In this document: in pieces, positions 16,033 to 55,821 of the stretch | Layout of the letters: every line of letters starts with the position of its first letter | How positions within the stretch are numbered: position 1 is the first letter of the stretch | From: Sphingorhabdus wooponensis | GTDB taxonomy: Bacteria > Pseudomonadota > Alphaproteobacteria > Sphingomonadales > Sphingomonadaceae | Reading direction: 5' to 3' | NCBI RefSeq assembly: GCF_003933235.1 | Contig: NZ_RWJI01000001.1 | Location: forward strand, 1,122,001-1,186,000 | Length of the DNA stretch: 64,000 nt | Program-made: the position numbers and the translations under genes | Notes under the pieces: model-generated | Seen by the model: only the letters and a program-made list of their open reading frames with translations | Database searches by the model: none | Told to the model about the DNA's origin: nothing

Positions 16033-16047
16033 GTTCCCTAACTGTTC
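16033..16047 (+). promoter_or_regulatory. LexA (SOS) box-like site before uvrD
   Basis: GTTC-CCTAACT-GTTC matches the alphaproteobacterial LexA consensus GTTC-N7-GTTC at all eight fixed bases and extends to TTGTTC-N5-CTGTTC. It ends 4 bp before the chosen uvrD ATG (16052). uvrD is a known LexA target in other bacteria, which supports function, but eight fixed bases on two strands are expected about twice by chance in 64 kb. Confidence 0.55.
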
Positions 16048-16051
16048 GCAG

Positions 16052-18355
16052 ATGTCAGACATTCAGGTCCAGTCCGATCCGTCGCAAACGGAACCGCCTT
16101 GGTTGCGTGGGTTAAACCCGCCGCAACGTGAAGCCGTGCTTACGACCGAAGGACCTGTGCTCCTGCTGGCGGGCGCAGGCACGGGTAAAACGGCCGCGTT
16201 GACCGCCCGTATGGCGCAGATATTATATACGCGCCAAGCATGGCCGTCAGAAATTCTCGCGGTCACATTCACCAACAAGGCGGCACGCGAAATGCGTGAA
16301 CGTATTGGCACTATGGTAGGCTCCGCGGTAGAAGGAATGCCCTGGCTTGGCACCTTCCATAGCATTGGCGCAAAGCTACTACGCCGCCACGCCGAAATCA
16401 TCGGCCTACAGAGCAACTTCACGATTATCGATACGGATGATCAGCTTCGGCTGTTGAAGCAACTTATCCAGTCCGAAGATTTGGACGAGAAGCGTTTTCC
16501 TGCGCGCGGATTAGCGAGCTTACTCGACAAATGGAAGAATGCGGGCAAATCGCCTGCCGATTTGGACGCTGCTGACAATGAAGCTTTTGCCAACGGCAAA
16601 GGCCAGCATATGTATGCGCTGTATCAAGCACGGCTGCTGGCGCTGAACGCCTGCGACTTTGGTGATTTGTTGTTGCATGGCCTGAACCTGCTGAAGAACA
16701 ACCGCGATATCCTCGAAAAATATCAAGCGCAGTTCAAATATATCCTTGTCGACGAATATCAGGATACCAACGCCGTCCAATATCTGTGGCTGCGATTGCT
16801 GGCGCAAAAACGCAAGAATATCTGCTGCGTCGGTGATGATGACCAAAGCATCTATTCATGGCGCGGGGCCGAAGTTGCAAACATCCTGCGCTTTGAAAAG
16901 GATTTTCCGGGCGCCAAGACGATCAAGCTAGAACAAAATTACCGCAGCACGCCGCATATTCTTGCGGCGGCATCGGGCCTCATTGATGCCAACAGCGCAC
17001 GGCTTGGCAAAACATTATGGACCGAATTGGACGATGGTGAAAAGGTCCGGATCATTGGCGTGTGGGACGGCCCCGAAGAGGCCCGCCGCGTCGGAGAGGA
17101 AATCGAGGCAATCCAGTATAAAGGCGAAAGTCTGGACAATATTGCGATACTCGTGCGCGCCCAACACCAGACGCGTGAATTTGAAGACCGTTTCATACAA
17201 ATCGGTGTCAATTATCGAATAGTCGGTGGTTTTCGTTTTTACGAGCGTGCCGAAATTCGCGATGCTATTGCCTATTTACGTATCGTCAATCAGCCCGCCG
17301 ACGACCTTGCCTTTGAACGGATTGTCAACGTGCCCAAGCGCGGCATTGGCGATAAGGCAGTCGAAAAAATTCATATTGTGGCGCGCGCAGAACGCACCCC
17401 TTTATCCGTCGCCGCCGCGCGTCTGGTCGGAACCGACGAACTGACAGGCAAGGCTCGCAAGTCCCTTGCGGACCTGGTGGTCGACATTGCCCGCTGGCGG
17501 GACGAGGCCGCGACGATGTCGCCGGCCAATTTGACACGCCTGATATTGGACGAAAGCGGCTATACTGCCGTCTTACAGGCGGAGCGCAGTACGGAGGCAT
17601 CGGGCCGCCTCGAAAACCTCAGCGAACTTGCCCGCGCGATGGAAGAATATGAGAGCTTGGGCGAGTTTCTGGAGCATGTGAGTTTGGTCATGGACAATGA
17701 CCGCGGCGACACCGGCGCAAGCGTCACGATTATGACCATCCATGCCGCCAAGGGCCTTGAATATGACAATGTTTTCTTGGTCGGCTGGGAAGAAGGCATT
17801 TTTCCCTCGCAACGCGCGTTGGACGAAGGTGGGCTTGCTTCGTTGGAAGAAGAACGCCGCTTGGCTTATGTTGCGATTACGCGCGCCAAGCGCAAATGCA
17901 CCATTATCCATGCCGCCAATCGCCGCATTTATGGCCAATGGACCAGCAGCATCCCCAGCCGTTTCATTGAAGAACTGCCGCTCGACCATATTGAGGCCGA
18001 ACAGACGATGACAGGCGGCGCATCCTTATGGCGCGCCAACTGGAGCGAACAGACCGACCCGTTCGCGCATCTGGCTGCCGCCAATCAAGGCCGAAGCAAC
18101 GCGCGTGGCCCTGGCTGGCAACGCGCCGCCACCTCGGGCGGCTTCAACCCCCGACCGCAGCGCATAGCGGAAAACACGCGCAGCGCCGTCAGCTTGGGTA
18201 ACAAGGGCCGAAGTGACCTCAGCATTGGCCTGCGCGTTTTCCATGAAAAATTTGGTTATGGTACCATTGCATTGATTGAAGGCAACAAGCTTGAGATCGA
18301 TTTTGAGCAAGCCGGCCGGAAGCGCGTCATAGACAGCTTTGTAAGTCTAGGCTGA
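16052..18355 (+). CDS. uvrD: ATP-dependent DNA helicase UvrD/PcrA
   Basis: This SF1A 3'-5' helicase works in nucleotide-excision and mismatch repair. The 767 residues contain LNPPQREAVL (Q motif), Walker A LAGAGTGKTA (about 39-48), motif Ia AVTFTNKAAREMRER, Walker B ILVDEYQDTN (about 232-241), GDDDQSIYSWRGA, LEQNYRS, motif V VTIMTIHAAKGLEYDNVFLVG and motif VI EERRLAYVAITRAKR. The C-terminal RNA-polymerase-binding-like segment (GLRVFHEKFGYGTI) is present. The start is uncertain: ATG 16052 has no Shine-Dalgarno; a TTG at 16016 has AGGA upstream but would put the LexA-like box inside the gene. The gene stands alone between rsmD and the MFS gene. Confidence 0.95.
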   Translation: MSDIQVQSDPSQTEPPWLRGLNPPQREAVLTTEGPVLLLAGAGTGKTAALTARMAQILYTRQAWPSEILAVTFTNKAAREMRERIGTMVGSAVEGMPWLGTFHSIGAKLLRRHAEIIGLQSNFTIIDTDDQLRLLKQLIQSEDLDEKRFPARGLASLLDKWKNAGKSPADLDAADNEAFANGKGQHMYALYQARLLALNACDFGDLLLHGLNLLKNNRDILEKYQAQFKYILVDEYQDTNAVQYLWLRLLAQKRKNICCVGDDDQSIYSWRGAEVANILRFEKDFPGAKTIKLEQNYRSTPHILAAASGLIDANSARLGKTLWTELDDGEKVRIIGVWDGPEEARRVGEEIEAIQYKGESLDNIAILVRAQHQTREFEDRFIQIGVNYRIVGGFRFYERAEIRDAIAYLRIVNQPADDLAFERIVNVPKRGIGDKAVEKIHIVARAERTPLSVAAARLVGTDELTGKARKSLADLVVDIARWRDEAATMSPANLTRLILDESGYTAVLQAERSTEASGRLENLSELARAMEEYESLGEFLEHVSLVMDNDRGDTGASVTIMTIHAAKGLEYDNVFLVGWEEGIFPSQRALDEGGLASLEEERRLAYVAITRAKRKCTIIHAANRRIYGQWTSSIPSRFIEELPLDHIEAEQTMTGGASLWRANWSEQTDPFAHLAAANQGRSNARGPGWQRAATSGGFNPRPQRIAENTRSAVSLGNKGRSDLSIGLRVFHEKFGYGTIALIEGNKLEIDFEQAGRKRVIDSFVSLG

Positions 18356-53424: not shown

Positions 53425-54258
53425 TTACGCTTCTGCGGCAGGCGCTTCGGCTGGCGCAGCTTCTTCAACAGCAGGAGCGGCCTCTTCGGCCACTGGCGCG
53501 GCTTCTTCGACCAATGCGGGTTCAGCCGCTGGCTCAACTTCCGCACCAAGGTCAACGCCCTTAGCAACCTTAGCGTTCACATTGCCCTTGGTTGCCGCAG
53601 TGGCAACGGCGTCGCAATACAAACGAATGGCGCGCGCAGCGTCATCATTTGCAGGAACGGGGAATGCAATGCCGTCAGGCGACACGTTGGAATCGAGAAT
53701 CGCGATCACGGGGATACCCAAAACATTGGCTTCCTTGATGGCGAGCTCTTCTTTGTTGGCGTCAACGACGAACATGACATCAGGAATGCCGCCCATGTCG
53801 CGGATACCGCCAAGGCTCAATTCGAGCTTATCGCGTTCGCGCGTCATTTGAAGGATTTCCTTCTTCGTGAAACCGTGCGTGTCGCCCGAAAGCTGCTCTT
53901 CAAGAGTTTTGAGCTTCTTGATCGAGTTTGAAATGGTCTTCCAGTTGGTGAGCATACCGCCCAACCAGCGATGGTTGACGAAATGCTGACCCGATGCGCG
54001 GGCTGCATCAGCGATTGGGCCCTGGGCCTGACGCTTCGTGCCAACGAACAATACCTTGCCGCCAGACGAAACGCTCTGAGCGACGAAATCAAGCGCACGT
54101 GCAAACAATGGCACGGACTGCGACAGATCGAGAATATGGATGCCGTTGCGCGCGCCGAAGATATACGGCTTCATACGGGGGTTCCAACGGTGTGTTTGGT
54201 GGCCAAAATGGGCCCCAGCTTCAAGCAATTGCTGCATGGTAACGACAGGTGCCGCCAT
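53425..54258 (-). CDS. rpsB: 30S ribosomal protein S2
   Basis: S2 is a structural protein of the small subunit. The 277 residues start [45 protein letters not shown], and contain [34 protein letters not shown]. The last approximately 45 residues are an acidic alanine/proline/glutamate repeat ([25 protein letters not shown]) not found in most S2 proteins. A promoter-like element lies at 54366-54392 and a TTGCC/GGCAA hairpin at 54306-54320 in the leader. Confidence 0.97.
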
Positions 54259-54491: not shown

Positions 54492-54908
54492 ATGAAAGTG
54501 CGATTGACCGTCTTTGCTGGATTTTTGCTGGGGTTAACGCCGTAGCCAGCCTTTGCATATGCACCGTCATTGGGCGAAGCGCAGCAGTCCGTCCCGCCGG
54601 AACGCATGTCGTTTCTCGTAACCTTTGGCACAGAGCAATGCCCGAAGGCGGAAGGTGACGAAATCATCGTCTGCGCAACGCAGCCCGAAGGTGATCGCTA
54701 TCGTATTCCCAAACCCCTGCGCGTAGACGACGTTTCGGACATCGCTGGCGGAAGCTGGACCTCAGCGGTGGAAAGTCTCGACAGCTATGCACGCGCTATC
54801 TTGCCCAATAGCTGTTCCGTGAACGGCAGCAATGGTTTCACCGGATGCCTGCAACAGGCGCTGCAGGCATGGCATGCGGAGCGCCGTGGCGCGCCCAATA
54901 AACGCTGA
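54492..54908 (+). pseudogene. Secreted hypothetical protein interrupted by in-frame amber codon
   Basis: ATG 54492 opens a signal peptide (MKVRLTVFAGFLLGLTP) but codon 18 is TAG (54543-54545). Translation past it continues in the same frame with PAFA-YAPSLGEAQQ, completing a normal AxA cleavage site, then about 110 residues: MSFLVTFGTEQCPKAEGDE, IIVCATQPEGDRYRIPKPLR, ARAILPNSCSVNGS, GFTGCLQQALQAWHAE. The four cysteines could form two disulfides, as in a periplasmic protein. The interruption is one base change from a sense codon, so it is either a nonsense mutation, a sequencing error or readthrough. Internal starts (TTG 54570, ATG 54606) would make a protein without a signal peptide. Family unknown. 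Confidence 0.75.
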
Positions 54909-55000: not shown

Positions 55001-55026
55001 TTGACAATAAGGAACAAATAGTGAAC
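55001..55026 (+). promoter_or_regulatory. LexA (SOS) box-like site with -35 element upstream of the 79-residue gene
   Basis: TTGACA (55001-55006) is followed by GAAC-AAATAGT-GAAC (55012-55026), an eight-of-eight match to the alphaproteobacterial LexA consensus, extended to TTGTTC-N5-TTGTTC on the other strand. The box lies 74 bp before the start of the small membrane protein. No convincing -10 box is visible at 17 bp. Confidence 0.6.
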
Positions 55027-55100
55027 AAGGCCTCAAATCCGGTGTAAAGCCGAATCAACGCTCCAGCCATTTTGGTCGGAGATCACAAAGGATTAGTGCC

Positions 55101-55340
55101 ATGACGATCATCGCTTCCCTTCTCTTTCTTACGGCACTGGTTGCGTCCATCGGTGTGATCATTCTGTCAATTCGCAGCGCCATGCCGCGCATTCAAGAAG
55201 TTATCGATATGGAATTTGCGCCAGCGATGCAGCGGGAACGACGTATCATTCTCGGCGATATGCGGCGCTTGGCGCCTGCGACAATCATCGCCTTTCCAAA
55301 CGCGCCCCGCGTTCAAAACGACAAACGTTTAGCAGCCTAA
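55101..55340 (+). CDS. 79-residue single-pass membrane protein, possibly SOS-regulated
   Basis: The start is supported by AAAGGA 8 bp upstream. The product has one membrane helix near the N-terminus (about 3-24: IIASLLFLTALVASIGVIILSI) and then a charged region with IQEVIDMEFAPAMQRERRIILGDMRRLAP and a polar tail ending DKRLAA. I do not recognise a family. A LexA-like box upstream suggests induction by DNA damage, and small single-pass membrane proteins with that control (SidA and DidA in Caulobacter) block cell division; a similar role here is only inference. It lies between the interrupted secreted-protein gene and hup. Confidence 0.8.
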   Translation: MTIIASLLFLTALVASIGVIILSIRSAMPRIQEVIDMEFAPAMQRERRIILGDMRRLAPATIIAFPNAPRVQNDKRLAA

Positions 55341-55493: not shown

Positions 55494-55527
55494 AAAAAAG
55501 GGCGGGTGCTTTCGCCCCGCCCTTTTT
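55494..55527. terminator. Terminator of hup (bidirectional form)
   Basis: GGGCGGG (55500-55506) pairs with CCCGCCC (55516-55522), with AAAAAA on the left and TTTTT on the right, so it can end transcription in both directions. It lies 22 bp after the hup stop. Confidence 0.88.
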
Positions 55528-55548: not shown

Positions 55549-55821
55549 TTAGTTGACAGCGTCTTTAAGCGCCTTGCCAGCCTTGAACTTTGGCTGAGTC
55601 GATGCCTTGATGGTCATTGGCTCACCGGTGCGTGGGTTACGGCCGGTCGATGCCTTACGCTTTGCAACGCCAAAAGTGCCGAAACCAACGAGACGCACTT
55701 CGCCGCCGCTCTTCAGAGCGCCAGTGATTGCTTCAAATGTTGCTTCAACAGCTTTAGCAGCATCAGCCTTGGTCAAACCGCTAGCGTCGGCAACTGCACT
55801 GACGAGATCTTGCTTGTTCAT
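55549..55821 (-). CDS. hup: HU family DNA-binding protein
   Basis: HU is a dimeric nucleoid protein that bends DNA. The 90 residues start MNKQDLVSAVADASGLTKADAAKAVEATFEAI and contain the HU signature GFGTFGVAKRKASTGRNPRTGEPM (about 46-69) with the intercalating-arm proline. It lies downstream of lon, the frequent lon-hup order. A palindrome overlapping its likely -35 box is at 55910-55922. Confidence 0.96.
   Translation of the reverse strand: MNKQDLVSAVADASGLTKADAAKAVEATFEAITGALKSGGEVRLVGFGTFGVAKRKASTGRNPRTGEPMTIKASTQPKFKAGKALKDAVN

Follow-up and report, generated by a model that had tools for sequence, protein, structure and literature searches.

A predicted LexA-controlled membrane protein gene beside rpsB in Sphingomonadaceae: a candidate SOS division inhibitor with a putative degradation signal

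Here we describe a small gene of the Sphingomonadaceae that, across the genomes examined, keeps its vicinity to rpsB, an upstream LexA (SOS) box and its C-terminus while most of its sequence drifts. It was noticed in a 64-kb stretch of the Sphingorhabdus wooponensis genome, the whole of which we call the window, where it encodes a predicted 79-residue membrane protein (Table 1). Judged from its upstream region across genomes, control of this gene by LexA is highly probable. By analogy with SidA and SosA, we consider it somewhat probable that the product is a DNA-damage division inhibitor of their type. The initial annotation of the window had proposed such an inhibitor downstream of a LexA-like box; the C-terminal Ala-Ala and the linkage to rpsB are findings beyond it.

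Table 1. Coordinates of the 79-residue protein gene, its upstream elements and its neighbours in the window
Feature	Position	Strand	Remark
rpsB, divergent neighbour	53425..54258	-	locus anchor across the family; PF00318 match; synteny
TTGACA, -35-like element	55001..55006	+	5 nt ahead of the LexA box; also present in relatives
LexA (SOS) box GAACAAATAGTGAAC	55012..55026	+	extended form GAACA-N6-GAACAA reaches 55028
AAAGGA ribosome-binding site	55087..55092	+	ATG 8 nt downstream
Gene of the predicted 79-residue single-helix membrane protein, with SOS box	55101..55340	+	ATG at 55101
Codons 2-39, one continuous predicted helix	55104..55217	+	membrane segment and juxtamembrane stretch; AlphaFold2
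Codons 76-79, C-terminal RLAA	55326..55337	+	final -AA kept across the family; candidate degron
Terminator-like hairpin	55500..55517	+	between the 79-residue protein gene and the convergent HU-type gene
HU-type gene	55549-55821	-	convergent to the 79-residue protein gene; HU family match

The elements that the initial annotation had read from the letters are present in the window. The box matches the LexA consensus at all eight fixed bases and reads TTGTTC-N5-TTGTTC on the opposite strand, as the direct repeats described there; a TTGACA adjoins it, and the small gene that follows has the good ribosome site ascribed to it. The AAGGA columns of this site are invariant in a leader alignment of 18 sequences, and comparison with nine relatives (pN/pS 0.13-0.28) shows the open reading frame (ORF) to be under purifying selection. 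On the negative side, a promoter scan for a sigma-70 -10 partner of the TTGACA returned 0 sites.

Several side observations concern the surroundings of the gene. Between it and rpsB lies a small secreted-protein-like gene (54492-54908) with an in-frame stop at 54543, inside its signal peptide; this gene appears broken in four further loci as well (L036, L038, L040 and L052). Aligned with genus relatives, the leader (55027-55100) shows a small hairpin ahead of the ribosome site with five pairs, three of them with compensatory changes. The window's own leader, however, folds no better than shuffled sequences (z -0.47), and we regard the hairpin as a minor matter. A GAATC site in the leader is retained by one subclade of the genus.

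The eight fixed bases taken alone are no proof of LexA binding, since shuffled versions of the window contain the pattern GAACN7GAAC 1.55 times on average, 10 of 100 of them reaching the 4 occurrences of the real sequence, and since the whole genome holds 48 such sites against 104 for the reversed control pattern. The estimate of about two chance matches per window given at the outset was therefore a fair one. The published LexA consensus exists in a shorter form, GTTCN7GTTC (PMC12700426), and in a longer form from Caulobacter, (T/A)TGTTC(N6)TGTTC (PMC13384398); GAACAAATAGTGAAC agrees with both. The extended form GAACA-N6-GAACA is found at just 12 of the 48 genomic sites, the box of the 79-residue protein gene among them. 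Five of the other 11 precede recA, uvrA, a Y-family polymerase gene, a ribonucleotide reductase gene and an S24-type regulator gene, and a sixth lies before uvrD; the remaining five comprise four copies of a single repeat and one site within an ORF. Eight-base boxes also lie near the starts of lexA, radA, an MmcB-like gene and an RmuC-like gene whose match is below the NCBIfam cut-off. From the boxes before recA, uvrA, uvrD, lexA, radA and the others we conclude that an SOS regulon can be recognised in this genome and that the 79-residue protein gene belongs to it.

Within the window, a box of the extended consensus, GAACAGTTAGGGAACAA, lies on the minus strand at 16033-16047, just before the ATG of a UvrD-type helicase gene at 16052. 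On the second contig of the same genome, four repeat copies (L090-L093) contain GAACACGATCCGAACAT, a match to the extended consensus, and at L006 a gene for an S24-peptidase-type regulator has a LexA box of its own, GAACAAATATAGAAC, and is perhaps a second LexA-like layer. In Sphingopyxis granuli, the SOS-induced genes include lexA, recA, radA, dinG, imuAB-dnaE2 and SRAP genes (PMC6472365). The published table of that study, which may be a selection, has no gene of the present kind among those induced.

Conservation of the box in orthologues was among the checks named in the initial annotation, and the box is conserved, both in the genus (30 of 31 genomes with the gene) and across the family (83 of 110 rpsB-anchored regions, described below). 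A search with the single sequence found the gene in 31 of 45 genus genomes; the 14 others gave no match, and some of them were recovered later by profile. In 29 of 30 of these genomes the start codon has GAACN7GAAC no more than 130 nt upstream, the exception being G239 (L068), and the 31st, G227, has two. Most genus members have the box 88-95 nt upstream of the start codon, closely preceded by TTGACA. The two boxes in G227 (L163) are 34 nt apart, and in G068 (L072) the gene is present as two tandem copies, the exact box standing before the second copy only.

Beyond the genus the protein sequence diverges, and rpsB provides an anchor for locating the gene by position. It was found in all 149 Sphingomonadaceae genomes searched, and 12 loci of the diverged gene in other genera lie divergently beside it, as in the window. 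We read the upstream regions of 110 of the 149 genomes, none of them from the window's genus; this set is non-random, 30 being the rpsB loci with the best scores and the other 80 having been selected for breadth across genera. Of the 110 regions, 84 have a box within 700 nt of rpsB, and downstream of it, in all but one of these (83), lies a small ORF that encodes a hydrophobic helix. Such an ORF ending in Ala-Ala or Val-Ala is present in 77 of these 83 regions, the remaining six being without one. When the same reading was made from false positions, a small hydrophobic ORF appeared in 7 of 330 trials, and on the opposite strand in 24 of 330; neither control yielded one ending in AA or VA (0/330 and 0/330).

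The arrangement of the box is equally constrained. Ninety-nine boxes lie at 100-400 nt from rpsB, as against six elsewhere in the 1.5-2 kb read. The half-sites are spaced by seven nucleotides in 82 of the 110 regions, no other spacing between 3 and 15 occurring in more than 10, and the box is oriented toward the ORF rather than in reverse by 100 to 2. Of 100 family boxes, 92 and 91 have an A directly after the respective half-sites, and 72 have TTGAC within the 14 nt upstream. Given this conservation of spacing, orientation and position, the LexA control predicted for the gene is strongly supported by comparison of genomes.

Several regions lacking the standard arrangement still hold the gene. 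Four genomes (G001, G023, G070 and G095) have a one-mismatch box together with an ORF ending in AA, and in three more (G087, G089 and G124) the boxed gene lies 2-5 kb from rpsB; here the box accompanies the gene, and the 700 nt next to rpsB are free of boxes. Together with the 83 these make at least 90 of the 110 family genomes examined; box, ORF and profile revealed no such gene in the other 20. Outside the family, no box occurs within 700 nt of rpsB at the 30 best-scoring loci of a class-wide sample (241 genomes, 239 of them with an rpsB match); a single one lies at 1134 nt. Of 29 rpsB regions in the sister family, three contain a box of some sort, and a small hydrophobic ORF is absent from all; one of the 29 regions spans just 109 nt.

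Profile searches, which used the protein only, approach the family without any information from DNA. The first profile, A1, gave one convincing match beyond the genus (G087); another of its matches, in G399 (L076), was rejected, lying inside a long ORF without a box. Profile A2, to which diverged members had been added, was run over 347 family genomes with at most 15 candidates per genome scored, so that its yield is a lower bound. Half of the 74 matches listed at E 0.05 (37) cover the N-terminal end with the membrane helix; the other 37 begin beyond it, within longer ORFs. A LexA box stands within 250 nt upstream of 33 of the 37 N-terminal matches and of none of the 37 internal ones. When the window's genus and one other training genome are set aside, 25 of 27 N-terminal matches have the box, with G305 in the opposite orientation. 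Of the four N-terminal matches without an exact box, G239 and G001 show a form with one mismatch, one is the first copy in G068, and G332 is probably a false hit. Three diverged members (L113, L119 and L153) have two tandem boxes 25 nt apart.

Comparison of subgroup profiles gave probabilities of 95% for A2 against A6, 88% for A5 against A6 and 11.7% for A2 against A5. The first of these is not fully independent, because 2 of the 14 members of A6 were first found with A2, and the last means that sequence alone would not unite all subgroups. A class-wide profile, A3, led to 23 loci that were checked, and a box stands upstream in just two of them, G091 and G103, both from the window's family, and in 0 of the 21 others.

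The predicted protein has the single N-terminal membrane helix that the initial annotation had anticipated. AlphaFold2, applied to A2, models one helix over residues 2-39, where ten-residue blocks reach a pLDDT of 84-98; the blocks past residue 40 lie at 49-56, and the mean is 73. The charged tail, also anticipated, is basic, with a net charge that averages +7 over the 83 anchored members and is positive in 81 of them; on the N-terminal side of the helix the mean is about 0. By the positive-inside rule these charges predict an N-out, C-in topology, and the basic tail is probably cytoplasmic and disordered. The product is a predicted small single-helix membrane protein under predicted LexA control, and so of the same general kind as SidA, SosA and YneA.

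The most constant feature of the tail is its end. Among 43 diverse members, 41 end in AA and the other two in VA; this set is non-blind for the C-terminus, which its profile includes, and the rpsB-anchored set is blind to it. The commonest ending among the anchored members is AAA (52 of 83), a count for which ORFs ending in AA or VA were preferred when several fitted; the 77 of 83 given above and its controls were obtained without such a preference. For comparison, 2 of the 50 six-frame ORFs of at least 200 residues in the window, not all of which are genes, end in AA. C-terminal LAA, the end of the ssrA tag, and endings like it are recognised by the protease ClpXP. Mention has been made of ClpXP substrates linked to the SOS response and of a tripeptide, LAL, that resembles ssrA (PMC12974527). 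As the last two residues vary least in the tail, a degradation signal would explain them best, and the conserved -AA suggests a built-in degron of the ClpXP type by which the protein would be rapidly removed.

By the tests made, these proteins appear to be a separate family, SidA being compared by description alone. Searches of Pfam, NCBIfam and PHROGs with 31 members returned just matches of single members at E 0.0046 or weaker, which we take as chance for that reason. A match to COA2 (E 0.039) was rejected as the identity of the window protein, being under the family cut-off. The window protein by itself matched nothing in NCBIfam, nothing among PDB sequences at E 0.1, and nothing in the plasmids and phages searched. 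No LysM domain occurred in the Pfam scans of the 31 members. SulA (PF03846) was found in none of 31 genomes and was present in the E. coli control, nor did the Pfam scans of the window protein and the members contain a SulA match. Among the literature matches listed for LexA, SOS and sphingomonads, mostly open papers represented by titles and the starts of abstracts, no such gene is described.

Small single-helix SOS division inhibitors are described from Caulobacter, Bacillus and Staphylococcus (PMC4211646, PMC13396833, PMC6851548). With SidA and DidA of Caulobacter in view, the initial annotation had suggested an unrelated inhibitor that resembles neither of them clearly in sequence. What stands of that suggestion is the single predicted helix, the SOS box, the lack of SulA in the 31 genomes and the lack of a library family; division inhibition itself is an analogy. 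DNA damage leads to RecA-driven cleavage of LexA. LexA seated on the box over the promoter would keep the gene off, and its cleavage after damage would release the gene. We picture the product as a small protein of the inner membrane, its N-terminal helix free of charges and its basic tail cytoplasmic and probably disordered. The helix and the adjoining stretch may bind a membrane-embedded division protein, most likely one of the FtsW/FtsI/FtsN septal synthase complex, and the bound product would hold septum synthesis back during DNA repair, in analogy with SidA, YneA and SosA. Owing to its C-terminal Ala-Ala the protein would be degraded quickly by ClpXP or another AAA+ protease of that type, and with a short half-life division could resume soon after LexA recovers. 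Against this reading count the tail-inside topology predicted here, the lack of a match to known inhibitor families, the 20 family genomes in which the gene was not found, the six anchored regions lacking an AA or VA ending, the low probability for A2 against A5 and the Sphingopyxis granuli table. As a tentative proposal that falls a little short of probable, we see here a checkpoint of the Sphingomonadaceae's own, built on hypervariable, tail-inside inhibitors encoded beside rpsB that carry a mimic of the ssrA degron, a timer read by ClpXP, whereas SosA and YneA are targets of membrane and cell-wall proteases.

The same data can be read as an SOS-induced membrane regulator of a target outside division, such as an adaptor of a membrane protease or a regulator of envelope synthesis or transport. 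Only the helix and the C-terminal end are conserved across the family, and these name no target; a short half-life suits any transient stress regulator; and the Caulobacter SOS response has been linked to the envelope regulator HigX (PMC13384398). We nevertheless hold this reading to be rather unlikely, for the LexA-controlled small single-helix proteins SidA, YneA and SosA inhibit division.

The product could also be an SOS toxin like TisB, which would depolarise the membrane and favour dormancy, and its small size, its hydrophobicity and the SOS box would fit. Toxins of the TisB type have charged residues within the membrane helix. The best 19-residue helix is uncharged in 78 of the 83 anchored members and charged in five (these segments were picked for hydrophobicity, which favours such an outcome), the stretch after the helix averages 58 residues, and the window protein is without plasmid or phage matches, all of which makes a toxin quite improbable.

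That the box regulates rpsB-tsf, the ORF being a bystander, would account for the gene adjoining rpsB in most genomes examined, but the box orientation and the placement of TTGAC are set toward the ORF, the box stays at the ORF where the latter is far from rpsB, and the ORF itself is under purifying selection; this explanation is very improbable. About 1.6 such boxes are expected per window, and the likelihood of a chance box at an ordinary orphan ORF is negligible in view of the genus and family conservation, the fixed spacing and orientation and the absence of AA- or VA-ending ORFs from both sets of controls.

Read as a candidate division inhibitor, the gene offers a defined locus in at least 90 of the 110 family genomes examined, with a regulator, a target class and a turnover signal that can be tested. 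No account of division arrest upon DNA damage in sphingomonads is among the literature matches listed. When a checkpoint protein drifts too fast for sequence search, the LexA box, the adjacent gene and the terminal residues can still reveal it, and if the C-terminal reading is right, the present protein would be a natural SOS effector carrying its own clock.

Among the closest known systems is SidA (CCNA_02004; PMC11034885) of Caulobacter crescentus, a 29-residue, SOS-induced protein that interacts with FtsW (PMC4211646). Deleting sidA rescues filamentation in Caulobacter (PMC12700426). Both genes have alphaproteobacterial LexA control and both products are small inner-membrane proteins, here by prediction; the lengths differ, at 29 against 79 residues, and the likeness is one of description, not of sequence. 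In Caulobacter, sidA itself may lie near rpsB. DidA, also of Caulobacter, has 71 residues and is SOS-independent, being activated by DriD (PMC4211646); it resembles the present protein in size and in its single helix, but not in regulation, given the LexA box here. SulA, which is SOS-controlled, blocks FtsZ polymerisation and is removed by a cytosolic protease (PMC13396833), would have in common with the present protein the predicted SOS control and the cytosolic removal proposed here, but the 79-residue product is a predicted membrane protein.

SosA of Staphylococcus aureus has 77 residues and relatives across the staphylococci that are recognised by position, and it becomes hyperactive when its last 10 residues are removed (PMC6851548). 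Its near-equal size, its N-terminal helix, the recognition of relatives by chromosomal position and, if the degron reading holds, a C-terminus that restrains activity are its likenesses to the 79-residue protein. The SosA tail, however, is extracellular and proposed as a substrate of CtpA, whereas the tail here is predicted to be cytoplasmic and ends in -AA; and sosA adjoins lexA, whereas the present gene adjoins rpsB. YneA of Bacillus subtilis and ChiZ of Mycobacterium tuberculosis are damage-induced membrane division inhibitors, the role proposed here, but they carry LysM domains (PMC6851548), of which none was found in the 31 members scanned here. YneA acts on FtsW and is rapidly degraded, and low-confidence models place ChiZ, SosA and SidA on FtsW too (PMC13396833). 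The topology of SosA and YneA is opposite to the tail-inside topology predicted for the 79-residue protein. The gene would thus encode an SOS-controlled small membrane protein that, if our reading holds, acts in the manner of SidA and SosA with a different predicted topology and a different terminus.
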